From contig JAOAGY010000007.1 in NCBI GenBank assembly GCA_026415505.1, positions 1 through 64,000 on the forward strand: a stretch of 64,000 nucleotides of DNA, written 5' to 3'. Source of the DNA: Chlorobiota bacterium. Its GTDB lineage: Bacteria > Bacteroidota > Ignavibacteria > Kapaibacteriales > NICIL-2. Position 1 is the first letter of the stretch. Each line of letters starts with the position of its first letter. The notes under the pieces are model-generated. The model ran no database searches. It saw nothing but the letters and a program-made list of their open reading frames with translations, and had not been told where the DNA came from. The translations under genes and the position numbers were made by a program. Below are positions 16,762-22,284 of this stretch, piece after piece.

Positions 16762-17650
16762 TCCACGTGCAGGATTTTGCTGGGGCGTCGTCCGAACGGT
16801 TCAGATTGCCGAAGAAACGCTCCGCAGCAACGAAGGTGCAGTTTACGTCCTCGGTGACATTATCCACAATCCCCGCGAGATCGAGCGACTTCGAGCGCAG
16901 GGTCTTGTAACCATCGCACGCGAGGATATCCCGTCGCTGCCGCCGGGATCGAAAGTGCTCATCCGTGCGCATGGCGAACCGCCTGAAACCTATCGCATCG
17001 CACGTCAACACGGAGTCGAAATCATTGACGCAACCTGCCCGGTTGTGACCAAGCTCCAAGAGCGGGTGCGAAAGTTCTACGACCTCGGTTACCAAATCGT
17101 TGTTTTCGGTAAGCCCAATCACGCTGAAGTCGTCGGTGTCCGTGGCGTCTGCAACGACGAATGTATCGTCGTCCAAAGCGTCGGAGAAGCGCTCGATCGT
17201 GTGGACCTCCGTCGCAAGACAGTGTTGTTTTCACAGACGACGATGGATCGCCCGACCTTTCTCCAGTTGCGCGATGCTCTCACCGAGCGCATCGCTGAGT
17301 TGGTCGTCGAGGAAATGGGAACGATCGCGACCGAATTCCATGCGAAAGACACCATTTGCGGTCAGGTCGCTGGGCGAGAAAACGATCTGCGTCGGTTCGC
17401 GCGCGAAAACGATGTCATAATTTTTGTCGCGGGTCGCCGATCGTCCAATGGCAAAGTGCTCTTCGATGTTGTCCGCTCGGAAAACGAGCGTTCGTATTTC
17501 ATCGAAGACACGAGCGAACTTCGTCCCGAATGGTTCGACGGGGCTGAGCGTATCGGTATCACCGGTGCAACGAGTACACCGCAATGGTACATGAACCAGG
17601 TAAAGGACGAGATCGTGCGACGGTTCGCTACTGCTTCAGCGACGCAATAG
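16745..17650 (+). CDS. ispH: 4-hydroxy-3-methylbut-2-enyl diphosphate reductase IspH
   Basis: Last enzyme of the MEP isoprenoid route, an iron-sulfur protein giving IPP and DMAPP. 301 residues. The three cluster cysteines are Cys12 (GFCWGV), Cys98 (DATCPVV) and Cys205 (DTICGQVAGRE). AHGEPP and SSNGKVLFDV also match. The forms NHAEVVG, ICGQVAGRE, SSNGK and GATSTPQW follow the Bacteroidota branch rather than the proteobacterial ICYATxxRQ/GASTP form, which supports the lineage guess. The start overlaps cmk; the stop overlaps the convergent oxidoreductase by 23 bp. Confidence 0.95.
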   Translation: MNVTIDPRAGFCWGVVRTVQIAEETLRSNEGAVYVLGDIIHNPREIERLRAQGLVTIAREDIPSLPPGSKVLIRAHGEPPETYRIARQHGVEIIDATCPVVTKLQERVRKFYDLGYQIVVFGKPNHAEVVGVRGVCNDECIVVQSVGEALDRVDLRRKTVLFSQTTMDRPTFLQLRDALTERIAELVVEEMGTIATEFHAKDTICGQVAGRENDLRRFARENDVIIFVAGRRSSNGKVLFDVVRSENERSYFIEDTSELRPEWFDGAERIGITGATSTPQWYMNQVKDEIVRRFATASATQ

Positions 17651-19175
17651 CTGTCTCAGCAGCACGGACGCCATGGGCGACGGCACTTTCAAAAGCAGGG
17701 GCACTATCGTTGTCGGTATTGGCGAAAATGATATTTCCCAGTCGTTGTCGTGCTCGTTGAGCGGGTCCGTTGTGCGAACCCGGTGACGGCACAACGAGTG
17801 CATGTCCCCATCCGAATACGTGTACTTCCTCGATTGCCGATGCTGCGACTGTCGGTACAGTCTCCGTCACTCGCGCAGCGATTGTCCGAGCCAGCGAAGC
17901 CAGAATGTCGTCGCTCTGCATGATCGTGCGTTCGCGTGCCGATCGAGGCGCGTACACACTGGCAACTGTGGAGCTGTTGGATATACCGGAAGTCGCCGTT
18001 GCATTGATGATATCGGTGAACAAAGGTCCGCCATCGGGAACCCACAGATCGAATGCCGGTGGAAGAATGTTCTCGCGGGCACCCAAGTGGACCGTCAAAA
18101 ACGGAGAGTATCGCAGCGAATGCATCGCGGCACGCTGAGCTTGGGGTAGGTCGGGTATGATTGCCGGCAGCATGAATTTCTGCACGGCAACGATCGCAGC
18201 GCGACACCGGTACCTATGAAGCGTGCCCTGGCGGTCGAGTGCCCAGACCGTTGGAGCTGTATCGCCCTCGATACGGATGCACGTTCGGTCGGTATGGACG
18301 CAGCCACCGAGTTTGTTCACTATTGCAGTTGACAGTCCACCGATACCACCTGGAAAGGTATATCGCGGTCCGGTGATCTCGCTTGCATAGAAGTTGAGCA
18401 GGGCGTAAGCATTGACGCGGTCGAGAGAGTCGCCCATCGAAGAGCGAGCATACAGATCGAGCAGCGACCGCAGAAATGGCGAGCGATACGTTGCGATGAA
18501 TTTCGCCGCCGTCGTTGAATCGAACGATGCGAGGTCTCCTGTCAGTTCATCCGGGAGTGGGTATGGCGGAATCGTGTCGCGTTCACGCCGAGCGAGCAGA
18601 TCGTCGCGGAAGCGACGGAGAGCGACTTTTTCTGCTGGTGGGATCGGTAGCGAGGCGATAGTTGCGTCGTCCCACATGTTGTTGAAGACCTGTCCTTTGA
18701 CGATCACGGCATCGTGTGGTGTCGAAATCGGCTCGATTCCTGCAAAGGCGCAGAGTTCCTCGATGGTAGCGTTGCGTTCGACGAAATAGATCGCTGCCAG
18801 AGGGTAATACGTATCGCCCCACCGTCCGCGTCGAGCTGCTCCACCACCGATAGGCTCATTTTCGACAATAGCGATGCTCAAACCGGCTTTCGTCAATGCA
18901 ACCGCTGCTGCCAAACCCGCTGGACCCGCTCCGACGATCACAACGTCAGCGGTGTGGTTTTTTGCGTCCTTCCAGTCGAGTCCATCGCGGCTGTTGTCGC
19001 GGATATAGCGGTGTGCGGTGTCGTAGAACTGATGCTCGACACGCTCGCGACCATCGCTGCCGACACGTTCGAGCTTCGGCGGCGTGCGATTGTTGCAGCT
19101 ATCGAGCGGTGTGCTCACATAGAGCGCACCCGATCCGAGCAGAAGTATCCGTAAGACGTCTCGCCGCGTCGGCAT
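17628..19175 (-). CDS. FAD-dependent oxidoreductase with twin-arginine-like signal
   Basis: The N-terminus RRDVLRILLLGSGALYVS looks like a Tat signal, so export as a folded flavoprotein is plausible. A Rossmann FAD site follows at about residue 78 (DVVIVGAGPAGLAAAVALTKAG), then IVENEPIGGGAARRGRWGD. The C-terminal part has a FAD-closing segment (GNIIFANTDNDSAPAFESAVAHG). The fold is that of the amine oxidase/phytoene desaturase superfamily; the substrate is unknown. 515 residues. It lies 58 bp downstream of the OmpA-like gene on the same strand and may be the last gene of that operon. Confidence 0.8.
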   Translation of the reverse strand: MPTRRDVLRILLLGSGALYVSTPLDSCNNRTPPKLERVGSDGRERVEHQFYDTAHRYIRDNSRDGLDWKDAKNHTADVVIVGAGPAGLAAAVALTKAGLSIAIVENEPIGGGAARRGRWGDTYYPLAAIYFVERNATIEELCAFAGIEPISTPHDAVIVKGQVFNNMWDDATIASLPIPPAEKVALRRFRDDLLARRERDTIPPYPLPDELTGDLASFDSTTAAKFIATYRSPFLRSLLDLYARSSMGDSLDRVNAYALLNFYASEITGPRYTFPGGIGGLSTAIVNKLGGCVHTDRTCIRIEGDTAPTVWALDRQGTLHRYRCRAAIVAVQKFMLPAIIPDLPQAQRAAMHSLRYSPFLTVHLGARENILPPAFDLWVPDGGPLFTDIINATATSGISNSSTVASVYAPRSARERTIMQSDDILASLARTIAARVTETVPTVAASAIEEVHVFGWGHALVVPSPGSHNGPAQRARQRLGNIIFANTDNDSAPAFESAVAHGVRAAETAIASLKQ

Positions 19176-19233: not shown

Positions 19234-19935
19234 CTACTTTACGCGGATAGTAAAGTAAGTGCCGCCGTAATAGAACCTGCCTTTCGGACGCAACCTTCGT
19301 GGGGGTGGATTGTACGGGTCGGTCGAGGTAATCTGAAGGGGTTCCAGACGAGACGGTGAAATACCGCGTCTGCGGAAGTACGCAATGATCGAATCAGCGC
19401 GTTGCCCGGAAAGGGTCGCCATCTTGTCAGCGGTGTCGGGCTTGTCGGGATAGCATTCGATCGCAAAGCCAATGTCAGGGTTGAGCTGCAGCAGTTGGAC
19501 GTATTGGGACAATCGTTCGTCGATGCCGACACGAAATCGAGCGCTTTGGTGCTCGAACAGCGGGACACTGACCAGGAGACGTCGCCCTGAGACTTTAGGC
19601 ATCAACACAAAATCGCGAGACAACTCTATCGGTCGGCTGACATCAGGTGTCGAGATCGCCTCGCGCCACCGCATATATCCATCGGTTTGGAACTCGACAT
19701 CGTACTGCTCCCTTGGTTTGAGAATGCATTGGTACTTGCCCTGCTCGGCAGCATTCGAGCGCGTCTCGTTGACCTTGTTACCGCGTCGATCGAAAAATGT
19801 CAACTTTGCTGTCAATGGTTTGCGTGTTTGTGCATCCAAAACGACACCGTTGAGCAAAACGGTCGGTTCGGTCTTAGCCCAGATGAGGTTCGTCAATAGC
19901 AAGCAAACAAGTATCGGTCCAATAGCTCTGCTCAT
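19234..19935 (-). CDS. Secreted protein: regulatory-like (CRD) domain plus OmpA-like C-terminal domain
   Basis: 233 residues. A signal peptide (MSRAIGPILVCLLLTNLIWA) leads to a carboxypeptidase-regulatory-like beta domain at about 25-115 (LLNGVVLDAQTRKPLTAKLTF, the typical start of this fold). An OmpA-C-like domain follows at about 130-233: PDIGFAIECYPDKPDTADKM then LSGQRADSIIAYFRRRGI, matching the LSxxRAxxV peptidoglycan-binding helix, though the upstream GHTD motif is changed. It is the last of three overlapping genes whose domains add up to those of T9SS protein PorE. No lipobox is seen. Confidence 0.75.
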   Translation of the reverse strand: MSRAIGPILVCLLLTNLIWAKTEPTVLLNGVVLDAQTRKPLTAKLTFFDRRGNKVNETRSNAAEQGKYQCILKPREQYDVEFQTDGYMRWREAISTPDVSRPIELSRDFVLMPKVSGRRLLVSVPLFEHQSARFRVGIDERLSQYVQLLQLNPDIGFAIECYPDKPDTADKMATLSGQRADSIIAYFRRRGISPSRLEPLQITSTDPYNPPPRRLRPKGRFYYGGTYFTIRVK

Positions 19936-20333
19936 TTTTTCCTCTTCGAGGATTTTTTCGATTTCGTTTTCGGTGTCTTCGCTGGCGATTTCTGCGTTGG
20001 CGTGTCGTTGGAAGAAAACGATTGCCCTATGCTGAAATCTTGGGTGAGCTCGGTGTATTTTGTCGCAGGTGGTATGGTGTAGGTGAAAGTGTAGCGTTCC
20101 AGATTCTCCGTCGTAATCGTGACTGAGTACGAGTGACCGGGCGACAGCACGGTCTGGTACGTGCCATCGGCAGCACTCTTGGCGCGAATGGTTTTGCCCG
20201 TTTCGTCTCGGAAGAGCATCTCCACACGAGCTGGCTGATTTCCGTTGCGGACGGTCCCGCGCAGCAGAGCTGTCGGCTCGATTTGAAATGCATGGAGTGT
20301 TGCAGCAATCAAGAAAACCAGCGATAGTTTCAT
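19932..20333 (-). CDS. Small secreted protein with regulatory-like (CRD) domain and Lys-rich tail
   Basis: 133 residues. A signal peptide is likely (MKLSLVFLIAATLHAF). One carboxypeptidase-regulatory-like beta-sandwich follows (ALLRGTVRNGNQPARVEMLF to TQDFSIG, with DGTYQTVLSPGHSYSVTI). The last 25 residues are Lys/Ser/Pro-rich (TKSKKSSKRKK), a basic tail that could contact cell wall, LPS or nucleic acid. Both ends overlap neighbours by ATGA, suggesting strict translational coupling with the WD40 gene before and the OmpA-like gene after. Confidence 0.75.
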   Translation of the reverse strand: MKLSLVFLIAATLHAFQIEPTALLRGTVRNGNQPARVEMLFRDETGKTIRAKSAADGTYQTVLSPGHSYSVTITTENLERYTFTYTIPPATKYTELTQDFSIGQSFSSNDTPTQKSPAKTPKTKSKKSSKRKK

Positions 20334-21370
20334 CGTCGTTTCCGTGGTTGTGATTGGTTGTGTTTTTTACCATTGCTCTGTTGTCCGTCGGTGTCCAAAG
20401 GATGGCGATTCCATACCCGAATGGATCCATCGCTACAGCCTGCGACGACTGTGTGACTGTCGCTGGTAACGTCGATGCTCCAAATCGGAGTGCCGACGTC
20501 AATGCTGTCACTGGCAGTACCTGTGAGGATATCCCAAAGCATGATTTTGCCGTCGTGTCCAGCGCTCAAAAGCGTCGTATTGTTGCCGGCGAACGTGATA
20601 TCGCTGACGTAACCGTCGTGCGCTTCGATCGTGCGGAGTAATTGTCCGTCGGGGAGGCTCCAAATTTTGATGAACCCATCGCGGTCTGCGGATGCGAGGT
20701 AGCGACTGTCGAACGAAAACAACACAGCGGTACACGGCGCCGTATGCGGTTGACCTATCAGTGGAATGATTGGTTGCCCGCTCGACGGTGACCATACGAT
20801 CACCTGCATATCCTCTCCGCATGAAGCAATGAGGCTGTCGTTGTAGCTATAGGCGACTCCCGTCACTGCGCCAGTGTGACCGCGCAGCGTTCTCCATTCT
20901 ACGCCATTTTGCCGATCCCAGATTTTCACTGTTTGGTCGCTACTGCCGGTTGCGATGTACCGACCGGAGTCGCTCTGGCTGAAATACACGCACAATACCT
21001 CGCCCGTGTGTCCAGTCAATGTGTTCACCGGTTGGCATGTTGCAGCCGTCCATATACGCAACGTCTGGTCGCCGCTGACGCTGGCAACAAAGCTGTCGTC
21101 ACCGGAGAAGGAAACGTTGTTGACTTCGCTCAGATGTCCGGATGCGGTGCACTTCGGCGTCAACGTCGGGTGCAACTGCCAAAGCTTGACCATGCCATCG
21201 ACGCCGCAAGTGGCAATGAGCGAATCGGATCGGTCAATGAAAACACCCAGAACACCACCTGTGTGGGCATCCGGGATAATGATGGTGGGATTCGATTTGT
21301 GTTGCGCTGCGACGGTCAACGTCATCGTCACTGTAAGCGCCAATGCGAGAGTTGCGAAGCGACCGATCAT
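20330..21370 (-). CDS. Secreted WD40 beta-propeller protein
   Basis: 346 residues. A signal peptide (MIGRFATLALALTVTMTLTVAA) is followed by about seven WD40 repeats. Each reads roughly H-x-G-V-x-x-V-x-F then S-x-D-x-T-V/L-K/R-I/L-W (DGMVKLWQL, DQTLRIWTA, DQTVKIWDR, DMQVIVWSP, DGFIKIWSL, DGKIMLWDI, DGSIRVWNR). Seven blades would close a propeller. A basic tail follows. Exported WD40 proteins usually act as assembly scaffolds. In T9SS, PorE carries such a propeller between TPR and CRD parts; here the propeller is a separate gene without TPRs or a lipobox. Confidence 0.85.
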   Translation of the reverse strand: MIGRFATLALALTVTMTLTVAAQHKSNPTIIIPDAHTGGVLGVFIDRSDSLIATCGVDGMVKLWQLHPTLTPKCTASGHLSEVNNVSFSGDDSFVASVSGDQTLRIWTAATCQPVNTLTGHTGEVLCVYFSQSDSGRYIATGSSDQTVKIWDRQNGVEWRTLRGHTGAVTGVAYSYNDSLIASCGEDMQVIVWSPSSGQPIIPLIGQPHTAPCTAVLFSFDSRYLASADRDGFIKIWSLPDGQLLRTIEAHDGYVSDITFAGNNTTLLSAGHDGKIMLWDILTGTASDSIDVGTPIWSIDVTSDSHTVVAGCSDGSIRVWNRHPLDTDGQQSNGKKHNQSQPRKRR

Positions 21371-21804
21371 GAGCGTGAACCTCCGAGAAATTCCTCGATG
21401 CGCTTGAGCGTTGCTAAAAGATGCTCTGCCTCTTCTCGACTGAGCACGACGGTATCGGCGCTCCCAGTGAGCTTGGCGTTGACTTTGGTGGCACGTCGCT
21501 TTTCAGCATATCGTTTTTCGATCGTCGTATCGTTGGCGATCGGTTCGAGCTCCTCCGAAATCCCGTTGGCGAGTAGTTGACGTACCTCGGCGATAGTTTT
21601 ATGTTGCTCACGGAGCAGGACCTTCAACACCCGCAGCACCCGCAAATCGCGCTCGGTGTACACGCGCACGCCGGCACGATTCTTGTTCGGACGCAACAGC
21701 GGAAATTCGCGCTCCCAGTGGCGAAGAACGTGTTGCTGCTCGTCGAACAGCTCGCTGACTTCGCGAATCGTGTAGTACAGCTTCGGAATCGTCGGATGCT
21801 TCAC
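21367..21804 (-). CDS. MerR-family transcriptional regulator
   Basis: 145 residues from GTG at 21804. Winged-helix MerR DNA-binding domain at about 8-75 (YYTIREVSELFDEQQHVLRHWEREF, then GVRVYTERDLRVLRVLKVLL), followed by a short helical region rich in charge. No metal-binding Cys is seen. Bacteroidota genomes carry a similar short MerR group of unclear ligand. It heads the operon with the WD40, CRD and OmpA-like genes and overlaps the WD40 gene by ATGA, so it may regulate them and itself. A promoter box at 21831-21838 puts the transcript start close to this GTG, which argues against the longer frame that opens at 21888. Confidence 0.88.
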   Translation of the reverse strand: MKHPTIPKLYYTIREVSELFDEQQHVLRHWEREFPLLRPNKNRAGVRVYTERDLRVLRVLKVLLREQHKTIAEVRQLLANGISEELEPIANDTTIEKRYAEKRRATKVNAKLTGSADTVVLSREEAEHLLATLKRIEEFLGGSRS

Positions 21805-21879: not shown

Positions 21880-22284
21880 ATGGAACACTACGAGTTGCTT
21901 CTCCCGACCGATCGTTCGATCGTCACTCGCGTGGAAGGTTTTCTGCGCAGCATACCGGCAGTCGAAGAACTACCGCCACAGCGACGGTTCAACGTGATCG
22001 TCGCAACCATGGAAGCTGTGACGAATGCCGTCGTCCATGGCAATCGTTCCGATACGACCAAGCAGGTCGAAATTCGCGTCGAGGTCGCCGACGACGCAAT
22101 CCGTGTGCGAGTGCGCGACTACGGCAGCGGCTTCGATGCGAGCGATCTTCCCGATCCGCGATTGAAGGAAAATCTGCTGCGTGAGGGAGGCAGAGGTGTC
22201 TTCCTGATGCGTTCGCTCGTCGATGATGTCTCTTTCGTTCCGAGCGATCCCGGTACCGAAGTCGTCTTGACGATCAATCGCTGA
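21880..22284 (+). CDS. Anti-sigma-factor-type ATP-binding protein (RsbW-like serine kinase)
   Basis: 134 residues, a single HATPase_c_2 domain. The N box is EAVTNAVVHGNR (Mg-ATP Asn), the G1 box is RVRDYGSGFD, and the G2 region is GGRGVFLMRSLVDDVSF. This is the GHKL form found in RsbW/SpoIIAB-type switch kinases, which phosphorylate an anti-sigma antagonist or bind a sigma factor. No partner sigma, antagonist or phosphatase gene is beside it. It is divergent from the MerR operon. Confidence 0.88.
   Translation: MEHYELLLPTDRSIVTRVEGFLRSIPAVEELPPQRRFNVIVATMEAVTNAVVHGNRSDTTKQVEIRVEVADDAIRVRVRDYGSGFDASDLPDPRLKENLLREGGRGVFLMRSLVDDVSFVPSDPGTEVVLTINR

Follow-up and report, generated by a model that had tools for sequence, protein, structure and literature searches.

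Across one bacterial order, the gene for a seven-bladed WD40 propeller stands beside the gene for a protein that joins a CRD to an OmpA-like domain (CRD-OmpA), a pairing suggestive of a cell-envelope complex that has not been described, and not of a PorE in pieces. The pair was found in the window, that is, the whole stretch of 64,000 nucleotides of DNA that was analysed. It probably constitutes an order-specific periplasmic module of two proteins with a MerR regulator of its own, to which the window's family (f1) adds a third protein with a Lys tail, consisting of a further CRD that is probably a tandem copy.

Operon layout and predicted proteins

Four genes on the minus strand of the window follow one another in the order MerR, WD40, CRD and CRD-OmpA. 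The first (21367..21804), with a GTG start, encodes a MerR-family regulator of 145 aa (Pfam MerR_1, 1.2e-17). It is followed by the genes for three predicted secreted proteins: the WD40 protein (20330..21370; 346 aa), the CRD-only protein with its Lys-rich tail (19932..20333; 133 aa) and the CRD-OmpA protein, with its OmpA-C-like domain (19234..19935; 233 aa). The original prediction of three exported-type genes overlapping by ATGA was exact in its coordinates, and 4-nt ATGA overlaps occur at all three junctions, including that between MerR and WD40, so that translational coupling takes in the regulator as well. The N-termini of the three exported proteins look, by inspection, like Sec-type signal sequences, and neither by eye nor by alignment was a lipobox Cys found in them, as had been anticipated. 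Promoter and terminator scans gave signals that were weak or close to chance.

The predicted seven-bladed propeller is borne out by seven PF00400 repeats (2e-58), which fill the chain of the WD40 protein; its C-terminal tail is basic. The confident AF2 model of this protein (mean pLDDT 90) resembles seven-bladed propellers (PDB 7big, TMt 0.95). CarboxypepD_reg (PF13620) matches the CRD-OmpA and CRD-only proteins with 19.2 and 21.3 bits, respectively, both below the gathering threshold of 32.3. In the CRD-OmpA protein, the CRD fold is nevertheless supported by a confident AlphaFold model (mean pLDDT 88), the structure matches of which include carboxypeptidase-D regulatory domains and OmpA-like domains, among them PorE's 6TOP. 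The OmpA-like domain, on the recovery of which by profile search the predicted link to PorE had been made to depend, is found by PF00691 at residues 126-200, with 29.6 bits, just above the gathering threshold of 27.2. No TPR was present among the listed Pfam matches of the three exported proteins (for the WD40 protein, 25 of 56 families listed).

Downstream of the CRD-OmpA gene, and outside the conserved core, lies a gene for an FAD-dependent amine-oxidase-like protein (17628..19175, minus strand; PF01593). Family f1 and a single f2 genome have this gene just 3' of CRD-OmpA (compare L151, 7663-9309). Among 14 neighbourhood records, its cluster (F03) adjoins the module in 6, with one genome represented by two records. 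The N-terminus of the protein, with an RR motif and a Cys, may be that of a Tat lipoprotein. On the opposite side, a HATPase_c_2 (RsbW-like) gene (21880-22284, plus strand) diverges from the adjoining MerR gene, a position that is conserved in the genus and family of the window.

Conservation across the order

When 62 genomes of the order were searched with both queries, strong matches being counted by hand and generic WD40 and PorE-type matches left out, the WD40 and short CRD-OmpA families were both present in 47 and both missing from 15, with no exceptions; the genomes are drafts and MAGs, in which an absence is soft evidence, but completeness reaches 90% or more in 101 of the order's genomes. 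A search of the whole order detected the WD40 family in 87 of 123 genomes. Among the named records, WD40 lies directly upstream of CRD-OmpA at 49 of 52 loci; two of the three exceptions fall at contig ends and the other, L055, is a second copy that stands by itself, so the arrangement is not due to chance. Adjacency at 49 of the 50 loci with room for both genes, mostly with overlaps or gaps of less than 60 nt, together with joint presence or absence in 62 of 62 genomes, marks the pair as an order-wide module. The class search likewise placed the two genes as neighbours at all 30 loci, with the CRD gene in between in family f1. In the named records, a MerR gene precedes WD40 at 36 of the 49 loci.

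Most of the named relatives are MAGs of Candidatus Kapaibacterium / Kapabacteria and Ignavibacteria, and the window's order is therefore most likely that of the Kapabacteria. The module is also found in records under the titles Desulfobulbaceae, Bradyrhizobiaceae and Chloroherpeton thalassium (L070, L082, L092, L096), which are probably mislabelled MAG bins. Some genomes hold a second free-standing CRD-OmpA copy (e.g., L055) and some two copies of the WD40 family (G210, G221, G247, G638). The flanks of eight relatives contain unrelated genes, such as those for EF-P, FtsW/RodA, glycosyltransferases, MlaE permease and a histidine kinase, and none of the neighbouring genes that were scanned was recognised as belonging to the T9SS. 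Genes beyond MerR are not conserved around the module, and they indicate no pathway.

Phylum samples of several hundred genomes showed no member of either family outside the order, though rare ones may exist beyond these samples. WD40 matches score 476 bits or more within the order and at most 219 elsewhere, and the family is order-specific in this sample. For the free-standing CRD-OmpA family, the scores are about 233 bits and more inside the order as against 131 or less outside, where the matches listed sit in ORFs of 434-897 aa. Certain 316-aa WD40 proteins from outside the order (f37) were considered as relatives and rejected; they start with MGF(I/L)SKIFGKK, have no export signal, and no OmpA-like partner was seen in their flanks. 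Large WD40 proteins of other Bacteroidota (L204, 2005-4167; L206, 1087-6258) have signal-like N-termini and C-termini resembling T9SS tails, and could be secreted WD40 cargo.

The CRD-only gene was found between WD40 and CRD-OmpA at 4 of 30 loci, all of family f1, and the predicted Lys tail recurs as a Lys/Arg-rich C-terminus in 4 of 4 copies. The CRD-only protein shares 25-35% identity with the CRD of its CRD-OmpA neighbour and 24-29% with PorE-type CRDs. The gene likely arose as a tandem copy of the CRD, an origin that so slight an excess in identity leaves unproven.

Relationship to PorE

PorE (PG1058) belongs to T9SS-bearing Bacteroidota and, as in the window, has a CRD followed by an OmpA-C-like domain, with a propeller before them. 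However, in PorE these domains share a single lipoprotein chain with TPR, and the propeller is a five-bladed PD40, whereas here the chains are separate and without lipobox or TPR, and the propeller is an unrelated seven-bladed WD40. A trap in the terminology is corrected by this comparison: the 'WD40' of the PorE literature means pfam07676/PD40, with five TolB-like blades, in a lipoprotein that also has TPR, CRD and OmpA-C domains (PMC5053529). The expected succession of three PorE domain types was right as an order of types, but the propeller in it is PF00400 in the window and PD40 in PorE. Moreover, with the middle CRD gene confined to the window's family, the agreement of the three genes with the domain order of PorE is a late, local coincidence.

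The proposed link to PorE holds for the CRD-OmpA protein. The best NCBIfam match of this protein (P0001) is NF052230, T9SS_PorE (E 1.9e-12; model positions 423-593), a partial match of 46.3 bits that does not reach the cut-off of 600. In hhalign, it aligns over both domains with the order's PorE-type proteins (prob 99.8, E 4.5e-30, 197 aligned columns). Judged by these alignments, the C-terminal half of PorE-type proteins and the CRD-OmpA protein have a common ancestor. The link fails for the propeller: in BLASTP, the window's WD40 protein had no detectable resemblance to the PorE-type propeller encoded in its own genome (E 0.52), hhalign against PorE-type propellers found nothing (prob 5.5), and NF052230 matched neither the WD40 (P0003) nor the CRD (P0002) protein. 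We infer that the propeller was recruited independently of PorE's and that the module does not replace PorE.

A PorE-type protein coexists with the operon in the window's genome, where an intact fused PD40x5-CRD-OmpA protein of 495 aa is encoded elsewhere (L140; NF052230 E 6.3e-79, below the cut-off). Such chains turn up in every one of the order's 123 genomes, whether the operon is there or not, and nothing has therefore been broken up; they are called PorE-type, and not PorE, as none exceeds the 600-bit cut-off of NF052230. In an unrooted tree of CRD-OmpA regions, which has long inner branches, the short CRD-OmpA family forms one clade (100/100) apart from the CRD-OmpA of PorE-type chains.

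Comparison with TolB-Pal

In the tolB-pal gene order, the propeller comes first, next to a neighbouring OmpA-like gene. TolB-Pal thus also consists of a separate periplasmic propeller and an OmpA-like protein encoded as neighbours, and the likeness is one of layout alone; the TolB propeller is of the PD40 type and has an additional domain, and Pal is a lipoprotein, unlike the WD40 and non-lipidated CRD-OmpA proteins of the window. TIGR02800 (TolB) and TIGR02802 (Pal) matched none of the window proteins at E 0.01, and no TolB above the family cut-off was detected in the window's genome. The Pal-like TPR-PD40-OmpA proteins of Bacteroidota (NF053607), to which CHU_0125 belongs, likewise have an OmpA-C-like domain after a propeller, but as a single chain with PD40, unlike the split proteins here; NF053607 gave the CRD-OmpA protein 30.6 bits, short of its cut-off of 620. 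CHU_0125 has a role in outer-membrane integrity in Cytophaga (PMC5891637).

Alternative explanations and a proposed mechanism

An ancestral or broken-up PorE, in which the fused chain and the operon descend from one propeller-CRD-OmpA arrangement, was one idea of the original prediction. The shared order of domain types and the homologous CRD-OmpA speak for it, but the mismatched propeller, the coexisting PorE-type chains and the separate CRD-OmpA clades largely refute it, and with the TPR missing from the operon and the separate CRD confined to one family, it is very improbable. The other idea, an unrelated envelope complex built of the same parts, fits better than a split PorE, except that the CRD-OmpA protein is a true relative of PorE-type chains. 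This kinship also bears on a role in T9SS, as PorE binds to the wall as well as to PorP (PMC7192894, PMC9143113); further, the T9SS itself is present, with SprA in 122 of the 123 genomes of the order and 46 matches to CTD-like T9SS cargo tails in the window's genome. Yet genomes without the module retain both SprA and PorE-type chains, so such a role, while possible, is not needed. It also sits poorly with the restriction of the module to one order in the phylum samples, though T9SS is widespread in Bacteroidota, and with scanned flanks in which no T9SS gene was recognised, and we regard it as unlikely.

The OmpA domain of PorE holds a peptidoglycan peptide via Asp576, Asn584 and Arg591 (PMC7192894). 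Two of the three side chains, Asp164 and Arg179, are present in the window protein with matching spacing and are invariant in 30 of 30 orthologues, which suggests wall binding. At position 172, which corresponds to the Asn of this peptidoglycan pocket, the window protein has Met and 9 of 30 orthologues lack Asn, making wall binding uncertain in the window's species. The substitution and a Pfam OmpA score barely above gathering would also suit a degenerate domain that does not bind the wall and serves the WD40 ring as a protein-protein module, perhaps in an envelope-stress response controlled by the MerR regulator so often found in the operon. Against this stand the invariant Asp and Arg and the retention of all three residues in 21 of 30 orthologues, and the degenerate domain appears less likely still than a T9SS role.

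For the order-wide module of two proteins, co-inheritance and gene coupling suggest that the WD40 and CRD-OmpA proteins bind each other. The OmpA-like domain would hold the cell wall, and on it the CRD and the WD40 ring would form a non-lipidated scaffold, which may dock a third envelope component by analogy with the pairing of TolB and Pal. More tentatively, the module might be an order-specific and undescribed counterpart of TolB-Pal without lipidation, with a eukaryote-like WD40 ring that reaches the periplasm by export and docks on the wall via CRD-OmpA.

Outlook

No studies of the WD40/CRD-OmpA operon, and none on the envelope biology of this bacterial group, were found in the open-access literature. 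What forms the CRD-OmpA half of PorE-type proteins also occurs as a protein of its own and is tied, by gene order and perfect co-occurrence in the genomes sampled, to an unrelated propeller. The joining of a propeller to CRD-OmpA therefore looks like an envelope design with more than one origin, and the WD40/CRD-OmpA pair offers a testable two-gene system in a poorly studied bacterial order.
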